Assembly: GCA_001717025.1 (NCBI GenBank)
Contig: MAGU01000082.1
Coordinates: 1-51,725, forward strand
Length of the DNA: 51,725 nucleotides
Direction: 5' to 3'
From: Candidatus Methanomethylicus oleisabuli
GTDB taxonomy: Archaea > Thermoproteota > Methanomethylicia > Methanomethylicales > Methanomethylicaceae
Each line of letters opens with the position of its first letter. Positions within the stretch are counted from its first letter, which is position 1. The translations under genes and the position numbers were made by a program. Below, in pieces: positions 1 to 25,771 of this stretch. The notes beneath the pieces were generated by a model. That model had not been told where the DNA came from, did no database searches, and saw nothing but the letters and a program-made list of their open reading frames with translations.

Positions 1-33
1 TCTCGTGGGCTCGGAGATGTGTATAAGAGACAG
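1..33. other. Illumina Nextera transposase adapter left on contig end
   Basis: These bases match the Nextera read-2 adapter, including its 19-base mosaic end AGATGTGTATAAGAGACAG, ending at base 33. It is library-preparation sequence, not genome. Read through, it adds the false N-terminus MYKRQ, a known artefact in databases, to the first protein. Genomic sequence starts at base 34. Confidence 0.97.
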
Positions 34-6026: not shown

Positions 6027-7109
6027 ATGCGTATAATCGAAACAGATCGCAAGCATGGGGGCGTCGAGGTGGAGGTCGAGGATTCGGACGACCTGTGGCA
6101 CCTCTATAACATAATCGACCGCGGCGACTCTGTGTGCGGTTACACCATGCGCGAGGCGAGGGTCTCCCGTGGCGCCGAGGAGGAGCGCGGCGGCAAGAGG
6201 CGAGTGTTCCTCTGCATCTCCGTCGAGGACATGGCCTTCCAGACATTCACAGAGAAGCTAAGGATAAAGGGGCGCGTCACCGTCGGACCGGACGACATGA
6301 ACATACAGGGCTCATTCCACTCGTTTGCGGTAGGGATAAGGGACCGAATAAGGATCACGAAGAGCGAGTGGCTATCTTTCCACGAGGAGCGCCTTCAGCG
6401 TGCGGCTTCGAGGTCGCGCCCCAAGGTCATAGTCGTCACGATAGACGACCAGGACGCCACTATATTTCTCATACGCGATTACCAGGTGGACGAGATACTC
6501 ACGATAAGCTCGCACATACCTGGCAAGTATGTCGAGACGTCTGACAGGCCTGCGCTCAAGTCCAAGTACTTCGGCGCGATAGGGGAAGAGGTCTCGAGGC
6601 TTCTCCAGCGGGAGCCGGCAGCCATCGTCACAGCCGGTCCCGGATTCACGAAGAACGACCTAGCAAGGGTTCTCAGGGAGAGGCTGAAGGGTGCGAAGAT
6701 CATCGAGGAGAACACCTCGAGCACCGGTGAGCCCGGGGTCAGGGAGGTCATGGCGCGGGGCGCCCTCACCAAGCTGATGGAGGACTCCACCATGCTGAGG
6801 GATTCGAGGCTGGTCGACGAGTTCCTGTCGAGGCTCTCGAAGTCGCCGAATATGGTCAGCTACGGCATCGCCGACGTGGAGATGACCGTAGACCGGGGCG
6901 CCGTCGAGTCGCTACTGGTCTCAGAGCGGCTCCTTAAGTCCATGCCCCCCGAGGAGCGGAGGGGAATAGAGTCCCTCTCAAGGAAGGTCGAGCGCTACGG
7001 CGGCAAGGTATTCTTCATAGGCGGAGAGCACGAGAAGGGCAGGCAGCTCGCCAATATGGGGGGGATCGCCGCCCTCCTGCGGTTCGCAGTCTCGCGGCGT
7101 AGCACCTGA
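6027..7109 (+). CDS. pelA: Pelota (aPelota), mRNA surveillance and ribosome rescue factor
   Basis: This 360-residue protein shows the three Pelota domains. The N-terminal Sm-like domain begins DDLWHLYNIIDRGD and has GSFHSFAVG; the central eRF1-like domain starts near KVIVVTIDDQDATIFLI and holds VTAGPGFTKNDL; the C-terminal eRF1 domain 3 holds YGIADVEMTVDRGAVESLL and FFIGGEHEKGRQL. It binds the empty A site of stalled ribosomes with aEF1A-GTP and lets ABCE1 split the subunits. TTG 6015 and GTG 6018 are in frame upstream, but ATG 6027 after GGTGCGG is the likely start. Confidence 0.95.
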   Translation: MRIIETDRKHGGVEVEVEDSDDLWHLYNIIDRGDSVCGYTMREARVSRGAEEERGGKRRVFLCISVEDMAFQTFTEKLRIKGRVTVGPDDMNIQGSFHSFAVGIRDRIRITKSEWLSFHEERLQRAASRSRPKVIVVTIDDQDATIFLIRDYQVDEILTISSHIPGKYVETSDRPALKSKYFGAIGEEVSRLLQREPAAIVTAGPGFTKNDLARVLRERLKGAKIIEENTSSTGEPGVREVMARGALTKLMEDSTMLRDSRLVDEFLSRLSKSPNMVSYGIADVEMTVDRGAVESLLVSERLLKSMPPEERRGIESLSRKVERYGGKVFFIGGEHEKGRQLANMGGIAALLRFAVSRRST

Positions 7110-7118
7110 GCCTGCTGG

Positions 7119-8153
7119 TCAGCAGGGGAACTCCGCGAACTTTTCCCTCGCCGCCGTCGGGTAGGCCTGGACGTACGACACTGCCGCGCCTGGAATGACT
7201 GTCCGAACAGCGTCGAGCATGCGCCTTGGGACCTCCACCGAGCTTCCGTCATCCGCCACGCCGACTTGGGCAACATCAACGCCGAGTGCCCTGGCAAGGA
7301 TGCGCTTCGCCGCCCTTCCTGATGCCCCCGGCACCTTGACTACGAACTTTCCGACGGTGCCATCATCGAGCCGCTCCTCCCACGGTCTTGCAGCGTTGGC
7401 AGCCCTCCTTGACAGCCTCATCCTAGTCTGAACGGCGTCCTTGACTGAGCTTGGGCAGTAGTGGACCGGAAACTCGATCCCCTCGGCCTCGGCCCAGCCG
7501 ACGACCTCCTTCGCGGCCTCCTCGCTCCCCTCGGCCGCCGCCATCGAACCGCCGATTACCCTGAACCCCCTCTGGCGAAGCTGGAATGCGTTCTGAGGGC
7601 AGAACTCCAGCTGGTTGATGTTTATGAAGTCAGCCCTGACCGAGGCGAGGTACCTTATGAGCCCCTTTATCTTGTCAGCTTCACCGGGGATGGATGGCAC
7701 CTCTGCCCCAGCGTACATCCCGAGCGCCTTAGCCTCAGCCACCCTTTCCCAGTCCCGCCTAGCCGGGTGGAACCTTATCTCGTCAAGCCCTGCGGACTTC
7801 AACCTAACAAGCGCATCCCTGCTGGCACGCCTGCCGTTTGTGTATAGGTGTATATGGTGGTCTTCCCCGAAGAAGCCCTTCAGGAGCCTGATGAACTTCA
7901 GCGTCCTCGTCAGCCTCATGAGCGGGTCGCCGCCGGTTATGCCCGTCCCCTCTGCGTCTATTGCCCTGCCCTCGAGTATTATGTCGAGGTCACCCTCCAC
8001 TGCCACCTCGTCGGCATAGATCACATCGAGGTTCTTCCTCCTCTCGCTGAGGGGGCAGTAGTAGCACGAGCCCTCGCACTTGCCCGTGACGAAGAGCACC
8101 ATCTTTGCGCCCCTCAGGCACGCCTCGCATCCCCTCGGCATATCGCCTGCCAT
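7119..8153 (-). CDS. Radical SAM protein of COG2108 type, function unknown
   Basis: The [4Fe-4S] motif is CEGSCYYCP, in which the three cysteines (CX3CX2C) bind the cluster that cleaves S-adenosylmethionine. The later GITGGDPLM is the SAM-binding GGE-like motif of PflA-like activases. A cysteine-pair segment GCEACLRGAK precedes the cluster, and a C-terminal domain of about 90 residues carries GASGRAAKRILARALG. The substrate is unknown. A TTG at 8189 would add a hydrophobic 12-residue lead; I prefer ATG 8153, where homologous sequence begins. It is the last gene of a four-gene minus-strand chain with a membrane protein, a nucleotidyltransferase and CutA. Confidence 0.82.
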   Translation of the reverse strand: MAGDMPRGCEACLRGAKMVLFVTGKCEGSCYYCPLSERRKNLDVIYADEVAVEGDLDIILEGRAIDAEGTGITGGDPLMRLTRTLKFIRLLKGFFGEDHHIHLYTNGRRASRDALVRLKSAGLDEIRFHPARRDWERVAEAKALGMYAGAEVPSIPGEADKIKGLIRYLASVRADFININQLEFCPQNAFQLRQRGFRVIGGSMAAAEGSEEAAKEVVGWAEAEGIEFPVHYCPSSVKDAVQTRMRLSRRAANAARPWEERLDDGTVGKFVVKVPGASGRAAKRILARALGVDVAQVGVADDGSSVEVPRRMLDAVRTVIPGAAVSYVQAYPTAAREKFAEFPC

Positions 8154-21309: not shown

Positions 21310-22314
21310 CAGGTCGTACGGAGGGGTGAAGACCCCCTTCTCAGTTATTATCGCAGATACCAGTTCGCTAGGCGTCAGGTCGAAAGCAGGGTTCAGCGCC
21401 TCTGTCCCAGCTGGCGCTATCAACGCTCCGCCCATGTGCGTCACCTCTTCGGGGGCGCGCTCCTCGATCGTTATGTCAGCCGCGTCGGCTTCCAGGTCGA
21501 CCGTCGAGAGCGGGGCGGCGACGTAGAATGGGATGCCGTAACGCCTCGCTATTATGGCATGCCCGCACGTCCCCACCTTGTTGACCACGTCGCCACGCCT
21601 TGTTATCCTGTCCGCTCCTACCACAACCTTCTTCACGAGCCCCCTCTGCATCACCGACGCTGACATGCTATCCGTTATTAGCCTGAAAGGTATGCCCTCG
21701 CTCTTCAGCTCAAATGCCGTTAGCCTCGCCCCCTGAAGTAGCGGCCTGGTCTCGCAGGCGTACACTAGCACCCCCTTGCCGGACTGCACTGCGCTGCGTA
21801 TCACGCCGAGCGCCGTCCCGTGCTCTACGCAGGCGAGTGCCCCGGCGTTGCAGTGCGTCATTACCCCATCCCCATCTTCAATGAGCGCCGCCCCGTAGCC
21901 TCCGATAGCCCTGCACCTCGCGACGTCATCCTCGGCTATCCTCCTCGCCTCCCTGACGAGCGCCTCCCTGATCGCTGCTGTGCCGCCTCCAGCCTCCTGC
22001 TCCCAGACCCCCCTCATCATCTCAAGCCCCCAGAAGAGGTTCCTCGCGGTTGGGCGCGTCCTACCTATTCGCTCTGCTGCCCGCTCAAGGTCTGCAACAA
22101 GCCCCCCCACGGTATCCGCGGTGCTGCTTCTGCCCGCCAGCGCTATCCCCATGGCTGCCGCTACTCCAAGTGCAGGGGCGCCCCTTATCTCCATGGTCTC
22201 TATCGCCCTCGCCAGCCTCTCGTAGTCGCCGCAGCTCACCATCCTGACCTCGGCCGGAAGCCTGGTCTGGTCTATTATTTCGACACGCCCGTCCTTCCAC
22301 TCAATCGTTCTCAT
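21292..22314 (-). CDS. mtnA: Methylthioribose-1-phosphate isomerase family (MtnA)
   Basis: The 340 residues begin with the canonical MRTIEWKDGRVEIIDQTRLP. They contain the catalytic cysteine string THCNAGALA, CETRPLLQGARLTAFEL, and GADRITRRGDVVNKVGT with the active-site aspartate. MtnA converts 5-methylthioribose-1-phosphate to the ribulose form in methionine salvage; related archaeal enzymes act on ribose-1,5-bisphosphate, but the N-terminal domain here is of MtnA type. The start overlaps the end of the hydrogenase-protease gene by 14 nt, so the two are co-transcribed. Confidence 0.92.
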   Translation of the reverse strand: MRTIEWKDGRVEIIDQTRLPAEVRMVSCGDYERLARAIETMEIRGAPALGVAAAMGIALAGRSSTADTVGGLVADLERAAERIGRTRPTARNLFWGLEMMRGVWEQEAGGGTAAIREALVREARRIAEDDVARCRAIGGYGAALIEDGDGVMTHCNAGALACVEHGTALGVIRSAVQSGKGVLVYACETRPLLQGARLTAFELKSEGIPFRLITDSMSASVMQRGLVKKVVVGADRITRRGDVVNKVGTCGHAIIARRYGIPFYVAAPLSTVDLEADAADITIEERAPEEVTHMGGALIAPAGTEALNPAFDLTPSELVSAIITEKGVFTPPYDLSVLFR

Positions 22315-22801
22315 GGCAGGTGCACCTTATTGCATTGGAGACCTCTTCTGACATCGCACTAATACCCCTTGCGACTGGCCTGCTGATGCCCCGGCCGAAC
22401 TCTGTAGTCTTTGGCTGTATGCCCGCCAGCGCTATCCGCACGCCCGGGATGCCTTCCCTAAGAACCATGAACAGGACCTTGACTGACTGCTTATGGGTCG
22501 AGAACGACTGCACGATCAGCTCGTCCTCCGCTATCATGGCGCGGCTCCCCGGCTCAGCCCCCATCTCCACGGCGTCGAAGAAGACCAGATGCGTCGGCTG
22601 GAACCTCTTCATATCGAGCGAGTAGTTCTCAGGCACCGTTCCACAGTCGAGCATGCCAACCGAGGGAGGGACCGCCCCCCTGAGCCTAGAGATCACGGCT
22701 AGGCCTGCGGCATCATCGCGCCTGATCCTGCTGCCGATCCCCACGAGCATCAGGCGGCGCCATCCTGTGAGGAACTTGGTCAGATCCTCTTCGAAGGGCA
22801 T
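22301..22801 (-). CDS. [NiFe]-hydrogenase maturation endopeptidase (HycI/HyaD family)
   Basis: This protein of about 166 residues has the family marks VGIGSRIRRDDAAGLAVI with the nickel-sensing acidic residue, LDCGTVPENY, and FDAVEMGAEPGS. Such proteases clip the C-terminus of the large hydrogenase subunit after nickel insertion. The HycI-like GIQPKTTEFG stretch suggests a group 3 or 4 target. No hydrogenase gene is in the window. ATG 22801 is chosen; TTG 22819 is in frame. The gene shares a promoter region with the divergent endA. Confidence 0.87.
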   Translation of the reverse strand: MPFEEDLTKFLTGWRRLMLVGIGSRIRRDDAAGLAVISRLRGAVPPSVGMLDCGTVPENYSLDMKRFQPTHLVFFDAVEMGAEPGSRAMIAEDELIVQSFSTHKQSVKVLFMVLREGIPGVRIALAGIQPKTTEFGRGISRPVARGISAMSEEVSNAIRCTCHEND

Positions 22802-22808
22802 ATTATTA
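22801..22808 (+). promoter_or_regulatory. TATA-like box for endA
   Basis: TATTATTA is centred about 27 nt before ATG 22832, giving a leaderless endA mRNA. It overlaps the start codon of the divergent hydrogenase-protease gene. Confidence 0.45.
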
Positions 22809-22831
22809 ACCAGCCCCAAACTAAGAGATAA

Positions 22832-23371
22832 ATGTTGGTCGTCATGTCCGAGGATACCCCGAAGGCGCTTCTTTCAGGTCGGTCCGCAAGAATGAGCGGT
22901 CCCGACGCCGACAGGACCCACCAGCAGGGCACCTTCGGCGAGATGGAGAGGGGGGTCCTGACGCTCTCGGACGTCGAGATAATGTACCTGCTCGAGAAGG
23001 ACAAGATAATGCTCATCGACCGCGACGGGAAGGCCCTCTCTATGGAGGACTTTTTGAGGCTGGCGACAGAAGAGGACCCGGACCTCTGGATGCGCTACCT
23101 GCTCTACTCCGACCTCAGGAAGAGGGGATACGTCGTCAAGCCGGGTTTCGGCCCCAAGCTGGAGTACCGTGTCTACAGGCGCGGCGCCGCGATGGGAACT
23201 GAGCCCGCCAAGTACCTCGTGTACGGGCTCGTCGAGGGGAAACCGGTCGCTATCAGCGAGATCGCAGCAGTCTCCTCCTCTGCAAAGCTCTCGAAGAAGG
23301 AGCTGATATTCGCCGTAACTGACAGACAGGGTGAAATTACCTACTATGACGCCTCGGAGATCGACTTCTAG
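22832..23371 (+). CDS. endA: tRNA-splicing endonuclease subunit (EndA family) lacking the catalytic histidine
   Basis: This 179-residue EndA fold begins with LTLSDVEIMYLLEKDKIML and YLLYSDLRKRGYVVKPGFGPK, and its catalytic domain runs from EYRVYRRG to ITYYDASEIDF. The active-site tyrosine (YRVY) and lysine (SKKELIFAVTD) are present. The histidine, expected immediately before the conserved A/S-K-Y-L-V, is proline (GTEPAKYLV). EndA cuts introns at bulge-helix-bulge sites. Loss of the histidine suggests the structural subunit of a heteromeric enzyme, as in many TACK archaea, with a catalytic partner elsewhere. It overlaps the UbiA gene by 26 nt. Confidence 0.87.
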   Translation: MLVVMSEDTPKALLSGRSARMSGPDADRTHQQGTFGEMERGVLTLSDVEIMYLLEKDKIMLIDRDGKALSMEDFLRLATEEDPDLWMRYLLYSDLRKRGYVVKPGFGPKLEYRVYRRGAAMGTEPAKYLVYGLVEGKPVAISEIAAVSSSAKLSKKELIFAVTDRQGEITYYDASEIDF

Positions 23372-24212
23372 GGCCGGGGCAGCCGTTAGGATGATGCGCC
23401 CTGTCAACTGTTCCATGATGGGCGCGGCCGTCATAGTCAGCGAGATCGCCATACTGGGCGCCATCCCCTCGCATGCCCAGATGGTTCTGGGCTTCGCCGT
23501 CGGCTTCCTGCTCACCGCATCCTCCATGATAATGAACGACATCGTGGACGTCGAGATCGACCGGATCAACGCCCCTGAGAGGCCACTGCCATCTGGTCTG
23601 CTCTCGCGGCGGCAGGCGATGTGGATGGCAGGCGCGACCGCGGTGCTCGGCATGTTGGCCGCCGTCCCCCTGTCTTACTATGCCCTTGCAGTGGCGGCGC
23701 TTACCTTCGCCTCATCATGCCTGTACAACACCCACGGTAAGCGGCACGGCATCTTGGGCAACTCGATGGTGGCATTCTGCGTGGCCATGCCTTTCCTCTT
23801 CGGCGGCCTCGTCGTCGTGGGATTCATCGACCTGCTTGTCGCCGTCTTCTTCCTTCTGGCATTCCTTGCCACCATCGGGCGGGAGGTGACAAAGGGCATC
23901 GCAGATATGGAAGGTGACCGTACGAAGAACATCAGTACCGTGGCGATCTCCAAGGGCGCACGCTTCGCCTCGAGGGTGGCTGCCCTCTTCTACATCCTGC
24001 CTGTCCTGTTGACACCGTTACCTTGCCTCTACGGCGCCATAGGGCTCGCATACGTGCCCGTTGTGGTCGCCGTGGATGCCGGTTTCTGCTACTCCGCAGT
24101 AAGCATACTGCGATCACAGGACAAGCAGAGCGCCCTCAGGGTAAAGACGCAGGCGCGGTACTGGATGCTACTCGCGCTGGTCGCGTTTCTCCTCGGCGGG
24201 CTCTTCCGCTGA
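23346..24212 (+). CDS. UbiA prenyltransferase, digeranylgeranylglyceryl phosphate synthase type
   Basis: This 288-residue polytopic membrane enzyme has two aspartate-rich motifs: NDIVDVEIDRINAPERPLPSG (about residues 63-83, Mg-prenyl diphosphate) and GIADMEGDRTKNISTVAI (about 185-202). Eight or nine membrane helices are visible. The sequence matches archaeal synthases that add the second geranylgeranyl chain to sn-glycerol-1-phosphate lipids. ATG 23346 is preferred over GTG 23331, which lies in the end of endA; AGGGTGA sits about 12 nt upstream. It follows endA in one transcript. Confidence 0.9.
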   Translation: MTPRRSTSRAGAAVRMMRPVNCSMMGAAVIVSEIAILGAIPSHAQMVLGFAVGFLLTASSMIMNDIVDVEIDRINAPERPLPSGLLSRRQAMWMAGATAVLGMLAAVPLSYYALAVAALTFASSCLYNTHGKRHGILGNSMVAFCVAMPFLFGGLVVVGFIDLLVAVFFLLAFLATIGREVTKGIADMEGDRTKNISTVAISKGARFASRVAALFYILPVLLTPLPCLYGAIGLAYVPVVVAVDAGFCYSAVSILRSQDKQSALRVKTQARYWMLLALVAFLLGGLFR

Positions 24213-25679: not shown

Positions 25680-25771
25680 GGGCCCATAGCTCAGTACGGT
25701 AGAGCAGCGGGCTTTTAAGAGGAATCGGAGATACCCGTTGGCCGCGGGTTCAAATCCCGTTGGGCCCGCCA
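25680..25771 (+). tRNA. tRNA-Lys (anticodon TTT) with 15-nt intron, CCA encoded
   Basis: The acceptor GGGCCCA pairs with TGGGCCC, with discriminator G and encoded CCA at 25769-25771. The D arm is GCTC/GAGC and the T arm GCGGGTTCAAATCCCGT. The anticodon stem GCGGG pairs with CCCGT only if 15 bases, AGAGGAATCGGAGAT (25718-25732), are removed between positions 37 and 38, the canonical archaeal site. This leaves the loop CTTTTAA, anticodon TTT. The spliced tRNA has 74 nt before CCA. The intron needs EndA, one subunit of which is encoded at 22832. Confidence 0.93.

Follow-up and report, generated by a model that had tools for sequence, protein, structure and literature searches.

The window, by which we mean the entire 51,725-nucleotide stretch of DNA from Candidatus Methanomethylicus oleisabuli that was analyzed here, contains a gene at positions 22832 to 23371 of the plus strand for a protein of 179 amino acids with both an N-terminal and a C-terminal endonuclease domain. 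The two domains score above the curated Pfam cut-offs, with 40.2 bits for PF02778 (N-terminal, cut-off 21) and 67-68.5 bits for PF01974 (C-terminal, cut-off 27). The start codon is ambiguous, as an alternative in-frame ATG is found at residue 5 (position 22844). The gene is flanked on one side by an ORF resembling hydrogenase maturation proteases (22301-22819, minus strand) and on the other by a UbiA-like prenyltransferase ORF (23331-24212, plus strand), both named by eye; the latter, as listed, overlaps the 3' end of the gene. For reasons developed below, the product is referred to as beta, the putative structural subunit of the tRNA-splicing endonuclease EndA.

The AF2 model of the single beta chain has a pLDDT of 88.9 and a pTM of 0.84. 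The homotetrameric EndA of Methanocaldococcus jannaschii (1a79) is its top match both in Foldseek (1a79_A, E 2.0e-16, TM 0.87 by query) and in VIA-align (Z 22.7, with an rmsd of 1.9 across 168 residues), while the structural subunit of Nanoarchaeum equitans (3if0) is matched with a Z of 15.4 in VIA-align. By its predicted fold, beta is thus an EndA-type, two-domain member of the tRNA-intron endonuclease superfamily. The NCBIfam equivalog TIGR00324, 'tRNA-intron lyase', also accepts beta, with 82.2 bits against a cut-off of 59.6. This is a hazard for naming, because automatic annotation may label a subunit that probably does not cut as the enzyme itself.

When aligned with M. jannaschii EndA, whose catalytic triad is Tyr115-His125-Lys156, beta possesses Tyr115, Pro125 and Lys156 in the corresponding columns, the numbering of the two proteins coinciding by chance. 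The codons are TAC at 23174-23176, CCC at 23204-23206 and AAG at 23297-23299, all on the plus strand. The complete Tyr-His-Lys triad, which is the mark of the catalytic EndA subunit (alpha), is therefore absent from beta, and the original prediction that histidine has given way to proline while tyrosine and lysine are kept is borne out. The nearest named relative of beta, from Ca. Methanomethylicus mesodigestus (88% identity), also has proline at this position and reads EPAKYLV.

The genome comprises 1.37 Mb in 86 contigs, is 95.2% complete and is close to that of Ca. Methanomethylicus mesodigestus, which the NCBI taxonomy places in the phylum Thermoproteota, class Methanosuratincolia, order Methanomethylicales. 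In GTDB the class is named Methanomethylicia. Gene content had at first pointed to the Thermoplasmata, an assignment abandoned in view of the named matches to Methanomethylicus. Near the start of both contigs considered here (window positions 18-33, and positions 5-20 of L003, the contig encoding alpha), 16 bases match the Nextera transposase end sequence exactly. This is adapter left untrimmed, and it adds the spurious residues VYKRQ and VSYTHL to ORFs at the contig ends.

The same genome contains two matches to PF01974, the window gene and a second gene on another contig (G000:C82:7125-7367(-), 97.5 bits). The latter, at positions 7083-7643 of the minus strand of L003 (contig C82), encodes a protein of 186 amino acids in which Tyr, His and Lys are all present. 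Its best match is the catalytic chain of the Aeropyrum pernix enzyme, 3p1z_B, with 149.4 bits for residues 10-184 of 186, followed by 3ajv_B (144.8 bits; the printed alignment shows Ala in place of His for this chain) and 2cv8_A from S. tokodaii (144.4 bits). When beta and alpha are compared with NF006795, a model of fused EndA, beta aligns with its N-terminal half, whereas the match of alpha is to the C-terminal half, presumably the catalytic one. A second subunit supplying the complete triad, as in the heteromeric EndA of TACK archaea, had been predicted from the window; the search for EndA paralogues found one such gene with its triad intact, in an organism that belongs to the Thermoproteota.

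The features of alpha are widely conserved. The comparison covered 59 alpha proteins: 31 from the class, one for each genome in which alpha was matched, and the 28 hits with the best scores in the remainder of the phylum. This sampling would under-represent broken alpha from beyond the class. The Tyr-His-Lys triad is present in all of them (31/31 and 28/28). Additionally, all 59 possess Lys in the column of A. pernix Lys44, the lysine of the Crenarchaea-specific loop (CSL), which one review ties to a broad substrate range (PMC6379350).

Splicing of tRNAs is clearly needed in this organism. A tRNA-Lys(UUU) gene with the anticodon TTT lies at 25680-25771 on the plus strand, and it is interrupted after position 37 (Sprinzl numbering assigned by hand) by a 15-nucleotide intron at 25718-25732. 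The intron-bearing tRNA-Lys that had been proposed 2.3 kb from the endonuclease gene is thus real, although plain ARAGORN run without the intron option miscalls it as tRNA-Leu(aag). Read by the standard rule for the bulge-helix-bulge (BHB) motif, bases 32-35 of the anticodon loop pair with four intron bases, and two 3-nucleotide bulges are formed, one per splice site. The minimum-energy fold of this stretch contains a similar but non-identical stem, in which the internal loops measure 2 nucleotides and the central helix has just three pairs. The central 4-bp helix forms in all 12 tRNA-Lys genes compared, which include 10 distinct introns. Changes within this helix among relatives are one-sided, from U-G to U-A, while the outer pairs show two-sided changes (G-C to A-U) in L128 and L151. 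In one relative (L122, 3886-3989) the tRNA-Lys intron is 27 nucleotides long, compared with 13-15 elsewhere, and the central helix is kept. Of 15 named loci scanned, 11 have the corresponding intron-bearing tRNA-Lys gene some 2.3 kb downstream of beta, and the other four had no tRNA-Lys in the stretch scanned.

Other potential substrates are encoded elsewhere in the genome, which has 40 tRNA matches. The intron option of ARAGORN was applied to 23 tRNAs, 18 that were long or weak and five from the window, and assigned an intron to 12 of them, two of which (L239 and L241) are doubtful calls. Three further genes of 95-100 nucleotides, L229 tRNA-Glu(TTC), L231 (tRNA-Met-like) and L232 tRNA-Glu(CTC), were given no intron by ARAGORN; each may contain an intron that is read as a long variable arm or lies at a non-canonical place.

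The presence of alpha and beta was surveyed across the class. Among 33 genomes searched, 28 gave beta. The five without it were four genomes at 73-85% completeness with alpha only and one at 59% with neither, and a single genome, 87% complete, had beta only. By hand count, both subunits were present in 23 of the 23 class genomes that were at least 90% complete. Of 250 genomes of the phylum (E 0.001, counted by hand), 218 had two EndA matches, 31 had one and one had three. The 31 count against a general pairing, though some of them gained a second EndA at looser settings.

Position 125 of the 28 class beta proteins is occupied by Pro in 22, Gly in five and Glu in one, and His is absent, while Tyr115 and Lys156 are each present in 28/28. 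Outside the class, 70 beta proteins were hand-picked across the families of the phylum, from 71 chosen, one (L119) having been dropped when no ORF could be extracted. None of these 70 has His125 (12 are gapped there), while Tyr115 is found in 42, Phe at this position in nine and Lys156 in 50. The original prediction had implied that the missing histidine was an oddity. This part did not stand, since His125 is absent from all 98 sampled beta proteins (12 of them gapped at the position), and the proline of the window protein is consequently neither an error nor an exception. Ten families of 'degenerate' beta, comprising 21 sequences, keep Tyr in only three cases and Lys in only two. When these families are set aside, a post hoc exclusion made after the residues had been seen, Lys156 is kept in 76 of the 77 remaining beta proteins, class members included, and Tyr or Phe115 likewise in 76 of 77, with Phe accounting for nine.

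A similar state was observed by eye in six loci taken as Asgard from their titles (L138, L139, L140, L142, L146 and L148), where Tyr and Lys are kept and His is replaced by Thr, Pro or Ala. An alignment of 28 rows, in which the window beta is joined by 27 named relatives (five from Asgard archaea), has only 11 invariant columns, among which are Tyr115 and Lys156. Some of the named loci lie on the same contigs as the surveyed class and phylum genomes, and the two sets of counts are kept separate. In a 70-row tree built with a quick method, one branch (SH-aLRT 98) has 24/24 alpha on a single side, and another (SH-aLRT 96) does the same for 45/45 beta, including five Asgard sequences. This tree contains no member of the ten degenerate families.

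The charge of the L10 loop provides further evidence on how the subunits assemble. The loop, by our own assignment, was scored at M. jannaschii position 168. This residue is Glu or Asp in 28/28 class beta, 48/49 other non-degenerate beta and 11/21 degenerate beta, whereas in alpha it is Lys or Arg in 43/59 and acidic in 9/59. An acidic L10 in beta and a mostly basic one in alpha argue for alpha-beta pairing, while the nine acidic alpha and the 10 degenerate beta that are not acidic speak against it. An obligate pairing of the two subunits is consistent with these charges, the docking itself being a prediction from sequence.

Based on this evidence, the product of the window gene is very probably structural beta in a tRNA-splicing endonuclease of the (alpha-beta)2 type, with alpha doing the cutting; we infer the stoichiometry, the identity of the cutting subunit and the docking of L10. 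Two alpha subunits, encoded on the other contig and carrying Tyr-His-Lys, would cut the pre-tRNA at both bulges. Two beta subunits would complete the tetramer, with their acidic L10 loops docking into alpha, and would be non-cutting as a result of the lost catalytic histidine.

It could instead be that alpha, which has all of the triad residues, works alone as a homotetramer and that the window protein binds RNA in some separate capacity. The retention of Tyr or Phe115 and of Lys156 in non-degenerate beta suggests a constraint beyond that of the fold and would suit such a role. The solved relatives of alpha are, however, (alpha-beta)2 enzymes according to PMC6379350, and beta accompanies alpha in every near-complete genome of the class. 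Moreover, a homotetramer uses an acidic L10, which most alpha lack and beta possesses, so we regard an independently working alpha as very unlikely.

Another possibility is that beta has an activity of its own, weak or of a different kind, that uses Tyr115 and Lys156 without a histidine. The near-universal presence of Lys156 and Tyr/Phe115 in non-degenerate beta speaks for this, but the nine proteins with Phe lack the presumed general base, Tyr115. Furthermore, both of the sites needed by a BHB are already supplied by alpha, and most of the degenerate beta have lost Tyr and Lys, which together make an active beta extremely improbable. Finally, the fragmented assembly and the adapter sequence on two contig ends might invite the suspicion that the gene is an ordinary catalytic EndA whose Pro codon arose through faulty sequencing or assembly, but relatives of the same genus and the same family carry Pro in assemblies of their own and His occurs in none of the 98 beta proteins, so that this explanation is ruled out for practical purposes.

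If beta is the structural subunit, the persistence of two of its three triad residues calls for an explanation. One that we offer tentatively, and would not yet favor, is that the beta of TACK and Asgard archaea has a half-kept active site. The histidine would have been lost before these lineages split, and Tyr/Phe115 and Lys156 would have been held by selection since, for example because they grip the backbone of the pre-tRNA at those two positions of the tetramer that do not cleave it. The ten other families, which resemble the hyperthermophilic Thermoproteia, would have decayed later. A literature search by titles and the starts of abstracts returned no mention of which triad residues beta retains, either for this class or for Asgard archaea, which is weak evidence of absence. 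Similarly, the retention of Tyr/Phe115 and Lys156 without His125 was not met in the available parts of PMC6379350, PMC12397907, PMC2738675, PMC4090602, PMC4033280 and PMC11291895. Very many tRNA introns are reported for Asgard genomes in PMC11291895, and in the portion of its text available the word endonuclease does not occur. The stepwise decay seen here, in which all sampled beta lack His but the loss of Tyr and Lys is confined to certain families, provides a series for the transition from an enzyme to a structural subunit, a question that also bears on the eukaryotic Sen54 and Sen15.

Among known systems, the closest in sequence and fold to the window beta is the alpha4 EndA of M. jannaschii (1a79), which is its best sequence match (80.6 bits) as well as its best structural match, and with which it has in common the two-domain layout and the residue numbering. 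In contrast, beta has Pro for His125, and its genome has a second, diverged gene. An alpha4 homotetramer goes with one EndA gene per genome and a full triad; here there are two genes, and beta is without His.

The eukaryotic TSEN54/Sen54 is a weak sequence match to beta, with 20-21 bits over residues 34-104 or 34-117, and a match in fold (7zrz_CP1, E 8.6e-11). However, it is a much larger protein and part of a four-gene complex, and no orthology with beta is claimed.

For the Crenarchaeota and Thaumarchaeota, the reviews PMC4090602 and PMC6379350 describe alpha2-beta2 endonucleases in which some subunits are catalytic and others structural. As in the window organism, the crenarchaeal (alpha-beta)2 enzymes of A. 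pernix (3p1z, 3ajv) and Pyrobaculum aerophilum (2zyz) are encoded by two genes, one of which carries Tyr-His-Lys and the CSL lysine. Compared with crenarchaeal beta, the window beta is less degraded, having both domains, Tyr115 and Lys156, and the A. pernix beta (3p1z_A) matches it with only 25.4 bits. The orthology of the two is accordingly drawn from the pairing of genes in the genome and from architecture, rather than from close sequence similarity. Catalytic and structural subunits likewise make up the (alpha-beta)2 enzymes of Methanopyrus kandleri (5x89, a construct in which the subunits are fused) and N. equitans (3iey, 3if0), as covered by PMC6379350; the same review gives the M. kandleri enzyme no CSL, whereas the alpha described here has the CSL lysine. 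Overall, the (alpha-beta)2 kind is already known from reviews and the window gene adds a member to it. The reach of this heterotetrameric splicing enzyme now includes the methanogen class to which Methanomethylicus belongs, where the genes of both subunits are identified.
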